51,675 bases of DNA from Lachnospiraceae bacterium. Lineage in GTDB: Bacteria; Bacillota; Clostridia; Lachnospirales; Lachnospiraceae. Made by a program: the position numbers and the translations under genes. A model generated the notes under the pieces. That model was not told the DNA's origin. It saw only the letters and a list, made by a program, of their open reading frames with translations, and did not search any database. Positions 17,264 through 23,208 of this stretch are shown here, in pieces. Numbering within the stretch: the stretch's first letter is position 1; each line of letters starts with the position of its first letter. The stretch lies in NCBI GenBank assembly GCA_021769135.1, contig JAETTM010000027.1, positions 1-51,675 of the forward strand, written 5' to 3'.

Positions 17264-18454
17264 ATGGAAAGAAGAGTAGGAACAATTTCAAGAGGAATCC
17301 GTTGTCCGATTATTCGGGAAGGGGATAATTTGATGAAAATCGTGACGGACAGCGTTCTGGAAGCGGCGGAGGCGGAGGGCTTTTCGCTGCGCGACAGGGA
17401 TGTGATTGCGGTGACGGAGTCGGTGGTTGCCCGTGCCCAGGGGAACTATGCAACGGTGGACGATATTGCCAAGGATGTGAAAGAAAAATTGGGGGGCGGA
17501 ACGATAGGGGTGATTTTCCCCATATTGTCCAGAAACCGTTTTGCCATCTGCCTGCGGGGGATTGCCAAAGGGGCGGAAAAAATTGTGCTGATGTTAAGCT
17601 ATCCCAGCGATGAAGTGGGAAATGAATTGGTTTCTTTAGATAAGCTGGACGATGCGGGCATCAATCCCTACAGCGATTTGCTCACATTGGAAAAATACAG
17701 GGAGCTGTTTGGGGAAAATAAACATCCATTTACCGGCGTGGACTATGTCCAGTATTACAGCGACATAATCCGGGAGGAAGGAGCGGAAGTGGAAGTTATT
17801 TTTGCCAATGACTGCCGGAAAATTTTAAAGTATACGAAAAATGTATTGAACTGCGACATCCATACCCGCGCCCGCACGAAGAAGATTTTAAAAGCCTGTG
17901 GGGCGGAAGTAGTCTGCGGCTTGGATGATATTTTAAATGTGCCGGCGGATGGCAGCGGATATAATGAAAACTATGGGCTTCTTGGCTCCAATAAATCCAC
18001 GGAAAGTTCGGTGAAGTTGTTCCCCAGGGAATGCAGTGGACTTGTGATGGACATTCAAAAGGAAGTGTTGGAGCGGACAGGGAAACATGTGGAAGTCATG
18101 GTTTATGGCGATGGGGCATTCAAAGATCCGGTAGGGAAAATATGGGAACTGGCAGACCCTTGCGTATCTCCGGCCAGCACGCCGGGCCTGGACGGAACGC
18201 CCAATGAAGTGAAGTTAAAATATTTGGCGGATAATGACTTTAAAGATTTGTCCGGCGAAGCGTTAAAGGAAGCGATTGAGAACCGTATCCGTGAGAAGAA
18301 GGACAATCTGGTAGGGGATATGGCCGCCCAGGGAACGACGCCGAGGAAGCTGACCGATTTAATCGGCTCCCTTTGCGATTTGACAAGCGGCTCGGGGGAC
18401 AAAGGCACCCCTGTCATTTTGATACAAGGCTATTTTGATAATTATGTTTCATAG
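17264..18454 (+). CDS. Coenzyme F420-0:L-glutamate ligase family protein (CofE-like)
   Basis: 396-aa cytoplasmic protein of the F420_ligase family. CofE adds gamma-linked glutamate to F420-0 using GTP. Family-like features are VIAVTESVVARAQGNY (about residues 47-62), IFPILSRNRFAICLRGIAKGA, NDCRKILKYT, and the conserved acidic stretch VMVYGDGAFKDPVGKIWE. F420 is not expected in Lachnospiraceae and no other F420 gene is in the window, so the real acceptor is probably different. The gene has its own promoter and starts at ATG after an AGAGGATAAAAA site. It is followed 27 bp later by the TetM-like GTPase gene, so the two may be co-transcribed. Confidence 0.75.
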   Translation: MERRVGTISRGIRCPIIREGDNLMKIVTDSVLEAAEAEGFSLRDRDVIAVTESVVARAQGNYATVDDIAKDVKEKLGGGTIGVIFPILSRNRFAICLRGIAKGAEKIVLMLSYPSDEVGNELVSLDKLDDAGINPYSDLLTLEKYRELFGENKHPFTGVDYVQYYSDIIREEGAEVEVIFANDCRKILKYTKNVLNCDIHTRARTKKILKACGAEVVCGLDDILNVPADGSGYNENYGLLGSNKSTESSVKLFPRECSGLVMDIQKEVLERTGKHVEVMVYGDGAFKDPVGKIWELADPCVSPASTPGLDGTPNEVKLKYLADNDFKDLSGEALKEAIENRIREKKDNLVGDMAAQGTTPRKLTDLIGSLCDLTSGSGDKGTPVILIQGYFDNYVS

Positions 18455-18481: not shown

Positions 18482-21199
18482 TTGGTAATCGGAATATTAG
18501 CCCATGTGGATGCGGGAAAAACAACTTTGTCGGAAGCCATGCTCTACTTTAGCGGAACAATAAGGCGGATGGGGAGGGTGGATAACCGGGATGCTTTTTT
18601 GGATACCTATGAATTGGAGCGCAGCCGGGGGATAACTATCTTTTCCAAGCAGGCGGTTTTCTCGCTGGGAGGCAGGCGGATGACATTGTTGGACACTCCC
18701 GGGCATGTGGATTTCTCGGCTGAGATGGAGCGCACGCTCCAGGTATTGGATGCGGCAGTATTGGTAATAAACGGGATGGACGGCGTTCAGGGGCATACCC
18801 TGACGCTGTGGCGCCTGTTGAAGAAATATGGCATACCGGTATTTCTGTTTGTAAATAAAATGGATCAGGACGGAACGGATAAAGAAGCGCTAATGAAGGA
18901 ACTGCAGGGCAGGCTGAGCGGCGAGTGCATCGATTTTACGGAAAAGCTGTCCGGAGGGGATGAACAGGAATTTTATGAAAATATTGCTATGGCAGAGGAA
19001 GAAATGCTGGATGCATTTTTAAGGCAAGGGAAGATTGCGGAGGAAGAAATCAGGAGACTGGTTACGGAACGGAAAATATTCCCTTGCTTTTTCGGTTCTG
19101 CGTTAAAAGCTATTGGTATAGATGAATTCCTTCTGGGCCTGCAGACTTATACGGAGGAAAAAGAATATCCGGAAACATTTGGGGCTAAGGTGTTTAAAAT
19201 TGCCAGGGACAACCAGGGGAACAGGCTGACATTTCTGAAAGTTACAGGGGGAAAACTAAGGGCCAGGGCGGTGATAGCGGGCGGTAAAGGGGATAGCCGG
19301 TGGGAGGAAAAGGTAAACCAGATACGGATTTATTCCGGTGAAAAATATACGCCTGCCGAAGAAGTTCCCGCAGGAACAATCTGTGCGGTAACTGGCCTGG
19401 GCCATACTCGGCCAGGGGAAGGGCTGGGGGCGGAACAGGAATCGTTCCTTCCCTTATTGGAGCCGGTGTTGACTTACAAGATAGGGCTTCCGCCGGAATG
19501 CGATGCCGCATTGCTCTTTCCCAAACTTAGACAGCTGGAAGAAGAAGAGCCCCAGCTTCATCTGGTATGGGATGAGACATTGCAGGAAATACAGGCCAAA
19601 ATTATGGGGGAAGTACAGACTGAGATTTTGAAAAGCCTTATTTTGGAACGGTTTGGGGTGAACGTTACATTTGGTGCAGGCAATATTGTATATAAAGAAA
19701 CCATTCGCAGGGCGGCGGAAGGGGTAGGGCATTTTGAGCCTTTGCGGCATTACGCTGAAGTCCATTTATTGCTGGAACCAGGGGAAGCGGGAAGCGGGCT
19801 GGTATTTTCTTCGTGCTGCAGCGAGGATGTGCTGGATAGGAACTGGCAGCGCCTGGTGTTGACCCACCTGGGAGAGAAAGAGCATAAAGGGGTACTGGTA
19901 GGGGCCCCGATTACAGATATGAAAATCACCCTGATAGGCGGGAAAGCCCACCAGAAGCATACGGAAGGCGGAGATTTCCGCCAGGCCTCTTACCGGGCGG
20001 TGCGCCAGGGACTGATGGAAGCAGGGCCGGTATTGCTGGAGCCTTATTATGATTTCCGGCTGGAGGTTCCGGGTCAAATGGTCGGGCGGGCCATGGCGGA
20101 TTTGGAAAAAAGAAGCGCCGTTTTTTCTTCGCCGGTTTTGGAAGGGGAAATGGCGGTACTGACTGGATTTGCCCCGGTGGCTTCCATGCAGGATTATCCA
20201 AGGGAAGCGGCGGCCTATACGAAAGGGCTTGGAAAGATATTCTGTACATTGAGAGGATATGAGCCTTGCCATAATGAAGAGGAAGTAATAGAGCAAAGCG
20301 GCTATGAAGCGGAAAGGGATATGGAAAATCCTGCCGGTTCTATATTTTGCGCCCATGGGGCGGGATTTTTTGTGGAATGGGATGAAGTCAAGGACTATAT
20401 GCATGTGGAAAGCTGCCTTTCAGGGGAAAAATCCGAAGGGCCAAAGGAAGAGGACGGTTTTTTCAGGCGGAGGAAAAGGGAAAAAGCCGCCCGGGAAGAG
20501 GAAGCCGGAAAATGGCTGGGAACAGAGGAAGTGGACGCCATTTTGGAAAAGGCCCTGTATGCGAACAAAAGCGGAAAGAGGAAACAGGGGAAGACGGGAA
20601 AAGGGAAAAGCGGTAACAGGGGAAACGGGGAAAACGGCAGAGGGCTGCCTCCAGGGCATAAGGAGGATATGGCGCCCAGAATCCGGGTTTACGGAAAGGA
20701 CAAATATCTTTTGGTGGATGGCTACAATATTATTTTCGCATGGAACGAATTAAAGGAATTGGCCAAGGTGAGCATAGATGGGGCAAGAGGAAGGCTGATG
20801 GATATCCTCTGCAATTATCAGGGCATCAGGAAATGCCATCTGATTCTCGTATTCGACGCCTATCGGGTGCAGGGTCATGATACGGAATTTTTTGACTACC
20901 ATAATATTCATGTGGTATATACGAAAGAGGCGGAAACGGCGGACCAGTATATTGAAAAATTTGCCTATCAGCATGGGAGCAAAGATGACGTGACCGTGGC
21001 TACTTCGGACGGGCTGGAGCAGATTATTATAAGGGGAAAAGGCTGCGCATTGTTGTCCGCAAGGGAATTGCAGGAAGAAATCCAAAGGGCTTCGGAGGAA
21101 ATCCAGAGGGCCTATGAGGATAAAATGCCAGAAGGGAGAAACTATCTGTTGGACGGTGTGGGGGAAGAGACGATGAAGGAATTGGAGAAGCTGCGTTGA
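18482..21199 (+). CDS. TetM-like ribosomal GTPase fused to a YacP/Rae1-type NYN ribonuclease domain
   Basis: 905 aa, TTG start with GAGAGG 9 bp upstream. The EF-G/TetM-like part shows G1 AHVDAGKTT (7-15), G2 RGIT (49-52), G3 DTPGH (71-75) and G4 NKMD (125-128). EF-G domains II-V continue to about residue 610 (for example GAPITDMKITLIGGKAHQKH, then GGDFRQASYRAV). A basic, low-complexity Lys/Gly/Asn-rich linker (about 650-735) leads to an NYN/PIN-like domain (739-905). That domain has the YacP pattern LLVDGYNIIFAW (D746), VFDAYRV, TADQYIEKFAY and VATSDGLEQ, whose Asp residues should bind metal. B. subtilis Rae1 (YacP) is a ribosome-A-site mRNA endonuclease, so the fusion may deliver an RNase to stalled ribosomes. 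The tip loop corresponding to TetM's SPVSTPADFR differs, so tetracycline resistance is not assured. Confidence 0.85.
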   Translation: MVIGILAHVDAGKTTLSEAMLYFSGTIRRMGRVDNRDAFLDTYELERSRGITIFSKQAVFSLGGRRMTLLDTPGHVDFSAEMERTLQVLDAAVLVINGMDGVQGHTLTLWRLLKKYGIPVFLFVNKMDQDGTDKEALMKELQGRLSGECIDFTEKLSGGDEQEFYENIAMAEEEMLDAFLRQGKIAEEEIRRLVTERKIFPCFFGSALKAIGIDEFLLGLQTYTEEKEYPETFGAKVFKIARDNQGNRLTFLKVTGGKLRARAVIAGGKGDSRWEEKVNQIRIYSGEKYTPAEEVPAGTICAVTGLGHTRPGEGLGAEQESFLPLLEPVLTYKIGLPPECDAALLFPKLRQLEEEEPQLHLVWDETLQEIQAKIMGEVQTEILKSLILERFGVNVTFGAGNIVYKETIRRAAEGVGHFEPLRHYAEVHLLLEPGEAGSGLVFSSCCSEDVLDRNWQRLVLTHLGEKEHKGVLVGAPITDMKITLIGGKAHQKHTEGGDFRQASYRAVRQGLMEAGPVLLEPYYDFRLEVPGQMVGRAMADLEKRSAVFSSPVLEGEMAVLTGFAPVASMQDYPREAAAYTKGLGKIFCTLRGYEPCHNEEEVIEQSGYEAERDMENPAGSIFCAHGAGFFVEWDEVKDYMHVESCLSGEKSEGPKEEDGFFRRRKREKAAREEEAGKWLGTEEVDAILEKALYANKSGKRKQGKTGKGKSGNRGNGENGRGLPPGHKEDMAPRIRVYGKDKYLLVDGYNIIFAWNELKELAKVSIDGARGRLMDILCNYQGIRKCHLILVFDAYRVQGHDTEFFDYHNIHVVYTKEAETADQYIEKFAYQHGSKDDVTVATSDGLEQIIIRGKGCALLSARELQEEIQRASEEIQRAYEDKMPEGRNYLLDGVGEETMKELEKLR

Positions 21200-21222
21200 A
21201 ATTGGCAGGCTGCGGAAAGGAT

Positions 21223-23208
21223 ATGGTTAATCGTATGAGGAACGTAATCAATAATAAGAAAATTATCCGAAACATCCGATGGATTGCAGCCCTGTTTTGC
21301 CTGCTGTTATTTTGGACGGCATGGGGAGCAAAAGGGGCGGCAGCCGGAGAAGGGGGGCGGGTCAGCATACTTTTTACCCATGATATGCATTCCCATATTA
21401 ACAGCTTCCGGACGGTTTATGAGGGTGAGGATGCGAACATCGGAGGGTTTGCCAGGATAGAAACGATTATCAAAGAAAAAAGGGAGCAGTTCCCGGAACT
21501 GCTGCTGGTAGACGGTGGGGATTTCTCCATGGGAAGCCTTTTTCAGACAGTATATGAGACACAGGCATCGGAGCTGCGCCTGATGGGGGCTATGGGCTAT
21601 GACGCTACTACTTTTGGCAACCACGAATTCGATTTCCGCTCCCAAGGGCTGGAAAATATGCTGCGGACGGCGGCTGGAAGCGGCGATGAGCTTCCTTCTC
21701 TTTTGGTATGCAATGTGGACTGGTCGCAGGCGGGGGAGGAGCAGCTGGAAATAAAGGCGGCCTTCCAGGAGTATGGGGTGAAAGAATATGAAATCGTGGA
21801 AAAGAACGGGATAAGAATCGCCTTGATTGGAGTATTTGGCGAGGATGCCCTGGCCTGTGCGCCTACATGCGCCCTTTCCTTTCAAAATCCGGCGGAAGCG
21901 GTGGCGGAGACTGTGGCCAAAATACGCGAAGAGGAAGATGTGGACATGCTGGTATGTCTGTCCCATTGCGGAACCAATGAAGACAAGAAAAAGTCAGAGG
22001 ACGAAATCATGGCCCAGAAAGTGCCGGAGTTGGACGTAATTATCAGCGGGCATTCCCATACTACATTGGAAGAGCCGCTGGTATATGGGGACACCTATAT
22101 TGTATCCGCCGGGGAATACGGAAAAGCGGTGGGGGCGTTCACCATGTCTTCAAAGGAGGACGGCAGATGGCAGATGGAAGACTATGAACTGATACCGACT
22201 ACGGAGGATGTGCCGGAGGATGAGGGGATGAAAGGGCGGATTGCCGAATTTGAGAAGAACATTGATGAAGATTATTTGTCATATTTTGGATATACCTCGG
22301 ATCAGGTGCTGGCCCATAACAGCTATGAATTCAGCACTGTCCAGGATTTGGAGCAGCAGCATACGGAGCATAATCTGGGCAATCTGCTGGCGGACGCATA
22401 TATTTATGCAGTAGAAACGGCAAAAGGGTATGACGGGATTCCGGTGGATATGGCCGTGGTGCCCAGCGGAACGGTGAGGGATACTTATGTGCCGGGAGAC
22501 ATTACCGTGGAAGATGTTTTCAACTCTTTCTCTTTGGGAATCGGCAAAGACGGCATTCCGGGCTATCCGCTGGTCAGCGTTTACCTGACGGGGAAGGAAT
22601 TGAAAATGACGGCGGAAATCGATGCTTCCATATCGGATTACATGAAGACCGTCCGTTTGTACATGGGCGGTCTGAATATGACTTATAATCCCCATAGGCT
22701 CATATTGAATCGAGTGACGGACGTATACCTGACCAGGGGGGATAACGGCCATAGTATACCTGGGGAAGCTTCCCCGGGAACAGAGCGGATAGAATTGGAG
22801 GATGATAAACTCTACCGGGTGGTGGCCGACTTGTATTCGGGCCAGATGCTTAGCGAAGTTACGGACATGTCCTACGGTTTTTTATCTTTGGTGCCCAAAC
22901 ATGCTGACGGCACGCCTGTTACCGATTTTGAGGATTGTATTGTTTATGACGGGGACAGGGAACTGAAAGCCTGGGCAGGGATTGCCAAATATGTTGCATC
23001 TTTTGAAACCAATGCCGACGGCATATCCGAAATCCCGGAATACTACAAAGAAAACAGGGGAAGAAAAAATGTGGAAGACAAAAAGGACCTCATCAGCCTG
23101 CTGAAAAACCCGAATAAATATGCGGCCATGATTGGGGGAGTCATCCTGTTTTCGATTATTATTTTTGCGGCGGTTATTATAGCCGTAGTTAGGCGGATGA
23201 AGAGGTAA
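21223..23208 (+). CDS. Surface-anchored 5'-nucleotidase/2',3'-cyclic phosphodiesterase family protein
   Basis: About 661 aa. An N-terminal basic stretch plus hydrophobic segment (RWIAALFCLLLFWTAW) is an export signal. A C-terminal membrane helix (YAAMIGGVILFSIIIFAAVI) followed by RRMKR anchors it with the catalytic domains outside. Metallophosphatase motifs are THDMHSH, VDGGDFSMGS, FGNHEFDF, LSHCGTNED and SGHSHT. The 5'-nucleotidase C-terminal domain follows (GNLLADAYIYAV, VPSGTVRDTYVPG, FNSFSLG). The likely role is extracellular nucleotide scavenging. Possible starts are TTG 21196 (overlapping the previous stop), ATG 21223 and ATG 21235; I chose 21223, though GGAAAGG is close to it. It overlaps or abuts the GTPase gene, so they share a transcript. 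Confidence 0.85.
   Translation: MVNRMRNVINNKKIIRNIRWIAALFCLLLFWTAWGAKGAAAGEGGRVSILFTHDMHSHINSFRTVYEGEDANIGGFARIETIIKEKREQFPELLLVDGGDFSMGSLFQTVYETQASELRLMGAMGYDATTFGNHEFDFRSQGLENMLRTAAGSGDELPSLLVCNVDWSQAGEEQLEIKAAFQEYGVKEYEIVEKNGIRIALIGVFGEDALACAPTCALSFQNPAEAVAETVAKIREEEDVDMLVCLSHCGTNEDKKKSEDEIMAQKVPELDVIISGHSHTTLEEPLVYGDTYIVSAGEYGKAVGAFTMSSKEDGRWQMEDYELIPTTEDVPEDEGMKGRIAEFEKNIDEDYLSYFGYTSDQVLAHNSYEFSTVQDLEQQHTEHNLGNLLADAYIYAVETAKGYDGIPVDMAVVPSGTVRDTYVPGDITVEDVFNSFSLGIGKDGIPGYPLVSVYLTGKELKMTAEIDASISDYMKTVRLYMGGLNMTYNPHRLILNRVTDVYLTRGDNGHSIPGEASPGTERIELEDDKLYRVVADLYSGQMLSEVTDMSYGFLSLVPKHADGTPVTDFEDCIVYDGDRELKAWAGIAKYVASFETNADGISEIPEYYKENRGRKNVEDKKDLISLLKNPNKYAAMIGGVILFSIIIFAAVIIAVVRRMKR

Follow-up and report, generated by a model that had tools for sequence, protein, structure and literature searches.

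A translational GTPase joined to a Rae1-type NYN endoribonuclease in Lachnospiraceae, a candidate ribosome-recruited RNase

The window analysed here, that is, the whole stretch of 51,675 nucleotides of contig JAETTM010000027.1 from a Lachnospiraceae bacterium (assembly GCA_021769135.1), carries on its forward strand a gene for a translational GTPase fused to an NYN-type ribonuclease (RNase), at positions 18482-21199. The frame starts with a TTG at 18482, its stop codon ends at 21199, and from stop to stop it spans 914 codons; the preceding in-frame stop, a TAG at 18452-18454, also terminates the upstream gene. An earlier note, made from the letters of the window, had read here one intact frame with the motifs AHVDAGKTT, RGIT, DTPGH and NKMD, and Pfam and frame analysis bear this out: a single frame of 905 residues encodes five domains of the EF-G type, then a conserved extension and a tether predicted to be disordered, and lastly a full-length YacP/Rae1 NYN domain.

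All the parts of the protein are encoded on the forward strand. The G domain (residues 3-224, positions 18488-19153) matches GTP_EFTU (PF00009, E value 7.7e-49) and is followed by EF-G domain II (residues 235-315, 19184-19426, EF-G_D2 PF22042), domain III (residues 327-398, 19460-19675, EFG_III PF14492, folded in the model), domain IV (residues 401-514, 19682-20023, EFG_IV PF03764) and domain V (residues 517-599, 20030-20278, EFG_C PF00679). The match of domain III, with 25.4 bits, lies slightly below the Pfam cut-off of 27. Next come a C-terminal extension of the GTPase (residues 600-643, 20279-20410), delimited by alignment and modelled with a predicted local distance difference test score (pLDDT) of 79-92 for residues 601-640, a variable tether predicted to be disordered (residues about 644-740, 20411-20701) and the YacP/Rae1-type NYN endoribonuclease domain (residues 743-905, 20708-21196, NYN_YacP PF05991). 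The Pfam and AlphaFold check that the earlier note had proposed thus returned all five EF-G domains, the third just below cut-off, and NYN_YacP, with both halves folded. In the model of the whole protein (alignment of 69 rows, mean pLDDT 81.8, predicted template modelling score 0.58) the GTPase and the NYN domain are both well folded and are linked by a low-confidence stretch. When this model was searched with Foldseek, EF-G entries ranked first and TetM (3j9y) appeared at rank 50.

In the GTPase half, AHVDAGKTT, RGITIF (which holds the switch I RGIT), DTPGH and NKMD are near-invariant across 81 sequences, and with the P loop, RGIT, DTPGH and NKMD all intact the protein is predicted to be an active translational GTPase. 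In the same 81 sequences three further stretches are almost invariant: the domain IV motif GxGHFEPLRHYAEV, the extension NP..S.FC.HG.GF.V.W..V..YMH and the domain IV tip loop HxKHTEGGDFR. In the window this loop reads GKAHQKHTEGGDFR (residues 487-500, 19940-19981, from the alignment of fused and unfused members); its H490 is matched in the alignment by a histidine of the corresponding EF-G loop, and the model is less certain there (pLDDT 67 for residues 491-500). The counterpart in TetM is SPVSTPADFR. By sequence, the closest solved relatives of residues 3-596 are TetO (E 1.8e-76, the best PDB match) and TetM, and the nearest named family is tet_protect, with 416 bits, about half of its curated cut-off of 775. 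Other Tet protection models were also under their cut-offs (288 bits vs 1100 for the M/W/O/S model and 239 vs 1420 for a further one), as was the EF-G model TIGR00484 (285.1 vs 659.4). The description of this half as TetM-like therefore holds as a statement of the nearest named family and fails as one of membership, given these scores and the separate clade described below, and the doubt that the same note had expressed about drug protection is upheld by the Tet scores and by the KHTEGGDFR of the tip loop.

The NYN half is of the Rae1 type. NYN_YacP matches with 179.7 bits against a cut-off of 24.6, over profile positions 1-165 of 166, so that the NYN domain with a YacP aspartate pattern that had been read from the sequence is recovered as a full-length Pfam match. 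D746 and D792 are aspartates in 105 of 105 fused domains; for D821 and D843 the figure is about 104 of 105 (fractions of 0.99, the remainder being a gap); from what is known of NYN/PIN enzymes, we take these four to be metal-binding or catalytic residues. By sequence, the domain matches Bacillus subtilis Rae1/YacP (5mq9, E 3.9e-25; 5mq8 was also matched). The fold and the acidic site, on which the earlier note had staked its proposal, are both present in a structural model: a separate model of the NYN domain (34 rows, pLDDT 85.9) retrieved 5mq9_B in Foldseek with probability 1.00 and E 4.4e-12, and the template modelling score over the query was 0.71-0.72.

The two halves are joined by a tether whose pLDDT is mostly about 32-56 and whose length in the family ranges from 76 to 163 residues, with a median of 98 (70 of 81 tethers parsed). 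It had been described as a basic low-complexity linker. In the window it is mildly basic only (23 K/R vs 17 D/E in residues 642-738), but the median net charge in the family is 0 and a conserved stretch lies inside it. There, column conservation and the model define a short, weak predicted helix (residues 681-696, 20522-20569, forward strand), in which E683 and I687 are each conserved in at least 90% of 69 sequences within an otherwise variable tether. A regular expression for this motif matched in 32 of the 81 sequences only, and column conservation was used instead. The listed unfused proteins stop before this stretch, which is possibly a docking motif. In one genome of the same genus (G010, locus L037) a frameshift inside the tether puts the GTPase and the NYN domain in separate frames, which may be a sequencing error of this draft genome.

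The fused form is the usual one in the family of the window. In a scan of GTDB contigs with the full-length query, which favours fused proteins, the GTPase and the NYN domain share one frame in 80 of 80 sequences, these being the best 80 of 142 confirmed relatives. Among 116 relatives of the window's genome, NYN_YacP is present in 102: 65 have it in frames of at least 850 residues, 32 in frames of 170-216 residues, and five cut, shifted or shorter cases (G009, G010, G013, G021 and G108) were counted as fused, with a second piece in G054 and a 26-residue scrap in G091 set aside. The recurrence survey in Lachnospiraceae that had been suggested before gave, by frame length, the fused form in about 61 of 72 genomes, a stand-alone NYN_YacP in 7 and none in 4.

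In addition, a profile built from residues 1-643 of fused GTPases (20 rows) was searched against 293 genomes of the class, each at least 90% complete, at E 1e-110 and with four candidates scored per genome. It matched in 127 of them. The fused type is found in 103 genomes, mostly as a single copy and mostly above 835 bits (G116, G235, G310 and the cut G269 score lower); in 98 of these the open frame around the GTPase match reaches at least 840 residues (G176 and G302 with one internal stop), and the cut or split cases G159, G185, G269, G285 and G346 were classed by GTPase score, their NYN match lying elsewhere or being cut short. Furthermore, unfused proteins of 624-729 residues (651-805 bits) occur at 20 places in 19 genomes of the class, and Tet-like proteins (377-480 bits) at 10 places. 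The unfused members keep the KHTxGGDFR tip, unlike TetM, and the C-terminal extension; the Tet-like rows have a proline at the first glycine of the tip in at least 90% of cases and are without the extension. Across the phylum, at the stricter E 1e-150, the clade was found in 21 of 299 genomes, of which, by frame length, 18 have 857-914 residues (including the window's genome and five other genomes of the class) and three have 651-657.

A GTPase tree of 72 rows was then considered, with 40 of 90 fused proteins (10 chosen beforehand, including the window's, and the others picked for diversity), 20 unfused, 10 Tet-like and 2 EF-G, built by a fast search with no bootstrap. The fused proteins group in a single clade (Shimodaira-Hasegawa-like approximate likelihood ratio test, SH-aLRT, 95), and fused and unfused proteins together form one clade with support 100 and a long stem, some branches being long. 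The Tet-like rows stand apart (93), EF-G is far away, and the unfused rows as a group have a support of 9, which is none. Judged by sequence, the GTPase of the window is not TetM proper, and together with its unfused orthologues it belongs to a separate clade. None of the genomes of the class holds a fused and an unfused member together among the candidates scored, and because of this the two look like orthologues.

Fused and stand-alone nucleases nearly exclude each other. A stand-alone YacP is also present in 1 of the 103 fused-type genomes (G394) vs 86 of the 190 others, in frames of 160-216 residues (Fisher p 4e-19, a value that ignores relatedness). For this count every YacP match was listed for the other YacP-bearing genomes and for the four fused-type genomes with two matches; 89 of the 190 others had a match, the 86 stand-alone ones plus one in a frame of 342 residues (G396), a sub-cut-off scrap (G371) and a match in a frame of 451 residues near a contig start, probably a cut fusion (G297). 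Three fused-type genomes of one genus show a second, sub-cut-off NYN_YacP-like scrap (G234:C1:2323953, G287:C1:2636501 and G320:C20:134518; profile positions 3-49, 21 bits, frames of 163-165 residues), which may belong to a further small NYN protein. Directly upstream of stand-alone yacP lies a gene of the size of rlmB in 17 of the 21 loci inspected; by Pfam, eight of nine upstream proteins are a SpoU methylase or RNase III and the ninth, at L178, is FeoB, and sigma-70 region 2 was found in the one downstream stretch examined, at L165. The window's genome retains cysS, mrnC and rlmB in that order by Pfam, yacP is absent behind its rlmB, and its single NYN_YacP overall is that of the fusion. 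This near-exclusion suggests that the fused RNase does the job of Rae1.

The NYN domains were also compared in a tree, unrooted and with an unsettled bootstrap, from which three fused rows were dropped (L149, L151 and L153, their NYN start being missed by the pattern). In it, a supported branch (99/93) separates 25 of 28 stand-alone enzymes from the fused ones; the stand-alone enzymes of L031, L172 and L178 fall among the fused, and L031 is still behind rlmB. The simplest story would be one fusion event involving a yacP of this lineage. The nuclease appears to have changed since. Opposite residue 857, an arginine is found in all 28 stand-alone enzymes vs 40 of 105 fused, and a relaxed arginine at this place is what would be expected if targeting had moved to the GTPase. 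A strict pattern for the tail LExxRR matches 24 of 28 stand-alone enzymes vs 0 of 110 fused tails, a few of which belong to proteins cut at contig ends; among the four that miss it, L168 and L175 keep RR, and L031 and L172 are without it. Passages of PMC6613710 class the R166P change of B. subtilis Rae1 as loss of function in a suppressor screen. In our alignment, with the chain numbering of Rae1 taken as native, its residue 165 lies opposite R905, with which the window protein ends, so that the fused nuclease ends just before an arginine that is important in the free enzyme. The relaxation at 857 nevertheless seems a cleaner sign of fusion-linked change than the loss of the tail.

EF-G-family factors bind the factor site of the ribosome, with domain IV reaching the decoding site. 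We propose that the fusion is a vertically inherited, ribosome-recruited endonuclease of messenger RNA (mRNA) that replaces Rae1 in most genomes of the family and whose GTPase chooses the ribosomes, a reading to which we give an even chance. In its GTP form, the GTPase half would bind the factor site of a ribosome with a vacant A site, whether paused, starved or blocked by a drug, and would act as the recruiting, selecting and timing part. The NYN domain, on its tether of some 100 residues, would thereby be concentrated at the ribosome and, after GTP hydrolysis and the withdrawal of domain IV, would cut the mRNA within the A site or beside it; the cleavage is placed after the withdrawal because domain IV and the NYN domain should not share the A site at the same time. 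Alternatively, the cut might fall close to the mRNA entry; a tether 76-163 residues long would allow either. With this cut the mRNA would begin to decay, and ribosome rescue would be left with a truncated message. Ribosome binding, dependence on GTP, the order of events, cleavage in the A site and the link to rescue are all steps that we infer. A more ambitious form of the proposal, in which an EF-G-like clock licenses A-site cleavage, the fusion is the normal Rae1 of most Lachnospiraceae and the unfused GTPase is a ribosome-sensing partner of free Rae1, we regard as tentative and somewhat doubtful.

Several observations weigh against the proposal of a ribosome-recruited endonuclease that takes the place of Rae1. 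Six of the 19 genomes with an unfused GTPase have no YacP match, so that this GTPase has a role by itself and can do without a nuclease (G140 at L133, G143 at L135, G168 at L132, G182 at L136, G290 at L125 and G398 at L120), and the co-occurrence of unfused GTPase and stand-alone YacP is only marginal (13 of 19 vs 73 of 171, p 0.05). On the NYN tree the fused label needs five changes and not one, and for this reason the argument for a single origin comes from the GTPase tree. The second tail arginine is absent also in two stand-alone enzymes close to the fused ones in the tree, those of L031 and L172, and its loss is possibly older than the fusion. Competition between domain IV and the nuclease for the A site rules out a simple simultaneous model. 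Finally, no hint of ribosome rescue was seen in the gene neighbourhoods of fused or unfused loci.

Among the alternatives, the one that survives best is that the two halves share an address on the ribosome and carry out separate reactions, the GTPase an EF-G-like job (help in translocation, splitting or assembly) and the NYN domain the maturation of ribosomal or transfer RNA (rRNA or tRNA). The match of H490 with the tip histidine of EF-G, the unfused GTPases in genomes without a YacP match and the long tether with its predicted disorder would all fit this, and passages of PMC4342817 contain an older proposal that YacP-like NYN domains act on rRNA or tRNA. However, passages of PMC6613710 and PMC12320835 describe the stand-alone homologue as an endonuclease that acts on mRNA in the A site, and the near-exclusion of fused and stand-alone forms suggests the same job for both. 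We therefore hold separate reactions to be possible and, on the whole, unlikely.

Antibiotic resistance, that is, a Tet-type protection factor with an added RNase acting against tetracycline or a similar drug, was suggested in the passages of Atkinson 2015 (PMC4342817) on these fusions, and the names given to relatives at NCBI ('translation factor GTPase family protein', 'TetM/TetW/TetO/TetS family') would point the same way for some of them, as would the proximity of tet_protect, TetO and TetM. Against it stand scores of about half or less of the curated Tet cut-offs, the HxKHTEGGDFR tip in place of SPVSTPADFR, a clade apart from the ten Tet-like proteins compared, the mostly single copy and the lack of a conserved neighbourhood. 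Moreover, two fused-type genomes, G324 and G367, hold a Tet-like protein as well. We judge resistance improbable. Slightly less probable again is the idea that the fusion only links the dosage of two independent enzymes, with no GTP-dependent recruitment: a tether variable in sequence and length would be compatible with it, but the fused form is retained across many families and the position opposite 857, which does not vary among the stand-alone enzymes, does so among the fused. A phage-defence or growth-arrest effector that halts translation when triggered is very improbable, since, although ribosome-directed RNases are common in such systems, none of 5027 PADLOC models matched at E 0.001, the gene is usual across the family and no common defence-like neighbour appeared in the loci compared.

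The neighbours of the gene in the window offer context only. Upstream lies a gene for a protein resembling the F420 ligase CofE (17264-18454, forward strand, PF01996), which scores 44 bits vs 181 for CofE models, far below, and is possibly a different ligase; downstream lies a 5'-nucleotidase-like gene (21196-23208, forward strand, PF02872/PF00149). The gap to the former is 27 bases and the overlap with the latter 4 bases, terminator-like sites number 7 vs 6.6 in shuffled sequences and promoter-like sites 13 vs 8.3 (standard deviation 3.0), and co-transcription in this genome is possible. Membership of the flanking genes in the unit, which the earlier note had entertained, finds no wider echo: in the loci compared the cofE-like gene recurs only at the nearest relative, L111, and the 5'-nucleotidase gene at L111 and L039, so that an operon with either of them was judged unlikely. 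In 76 of 80 fused loci surveyed (at L050, L082, L101 and L104 the gene caller found no fused gene) no neighbour is widely shared at a fixed place, the largest family, an ABC transporter by sequence, being present at 18 of 76 loci and scattered. At the unfused loci nothing was common to more than two.

It should be noted, with respect to mobility, that fused or fused-like matches were found on two large plasmid records and on two unannotated faecal phage records, so that mobility is conceivable. In Agathobacter rectalis (L181) the fused gene adjoins a BrnT/CopG-type toxin-antitoxin pair on a secondary replicon of 251,725 bases, and in Monoglobus (L182) it lies on one of 517,814 bases. The two 'Bacteriophage sp.' records, MT835563.1 and MT835514.1, cover 89% and 99% of the fused protein and could be host sequence or cargo. 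Large plasmids of Ligilactobacillus salivarius carry unfused members of the clade (L183:2977-4911; 33 Ligilactobacillus records). In the L. salivarius record inspected, the gene is beside rpsN (S14) and a small 'putative metal homeostasis' gene; rpsN was absent from the other loci scanned.

If the proposed mechanism is right, the choice of ribosomes by Rae1 may, in a large part of Clostridia, be written into the gene, with the cutter tied to a translation GTPase. The fused clade and its unfused sister clade offer a natural comparison for what the GTPase adds. Another aspect concerns names: 12 of 13 Ligilactobacillus rows among the matches listed carry tetracycline-resistance names, and since the family is common in gut bacteria and partly named in this way, resistance surveys based on names may miscount.

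As far as our literature search shows, the gene is a member of a reported and apparently uncharacterised fusion family. The earlier note had missed this 2015 publication, as well as the prevalence of the fused form in the family, its rare coexistence with YacP and the unfused members of the clade. The report in question reportedly precedes the 2017 paper on Rae1. In its passages on the subject, Atkinson 2015 (PMC4342817) describes that Tet proteins of ten Clostridiales species gained a YacP-like NYN domain, and suggests for these Tet-NYN fusions a novel mechanism of antibiotic resistance. Beyond it, no work among the papers listed by the search visibly joins both halves; a 2018 survey of Rae1 by Condon may mention the fusion. 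The window protein has the same architecture, a Tet-subfamily EF-G-type GTPase with a YacP-like NYN domain in Clostridiales, and belongs to that family. Those passages are without the unfused orthologues, the near-exclusion with stand-alone YacP and a Rae1-like A-site cleavage. What the present analysis adds to them is the distribution, the separate GTPase clade and the probable replacement of stand-alone YacP.

With regard to characterised systems, Rae1 is a ribosomal A-site endonuclease according to passages of PMC6613710 and PMC12320835, and the latter place it among the few enzymes described to cut mRNA inside the ribosome. The window domain shares with B. subtilis Rae1/YacP (5mq8, 5mq9) the NYN fold, the acidic residues and a presumed ribosome context; the B. 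subtilis enzyme is stand-alone and co-transcribed with yacO (passages of PMC6613710), whereas the window domain is fused. The stand-alone relatives of Rae1 mostly end in LExxRR and usually sit behind mrnC-rlmB, and the window protein has neither feature. TetM and TetO share with it the five-domain EF-G-like GTPase with intact G motifs, but differ in the tip of domain IV and in having no C-terminal extension, and the window protein scores far below their family cut-offs and lies in a separate clade. EF-G, in turn, gives the best structural matches of the model and has a histidine at the tip position of H490, as the window protein does, whereas the latter lies below the EF-G cut-off, far from EF-G in the tree, and has other domain IV loops.

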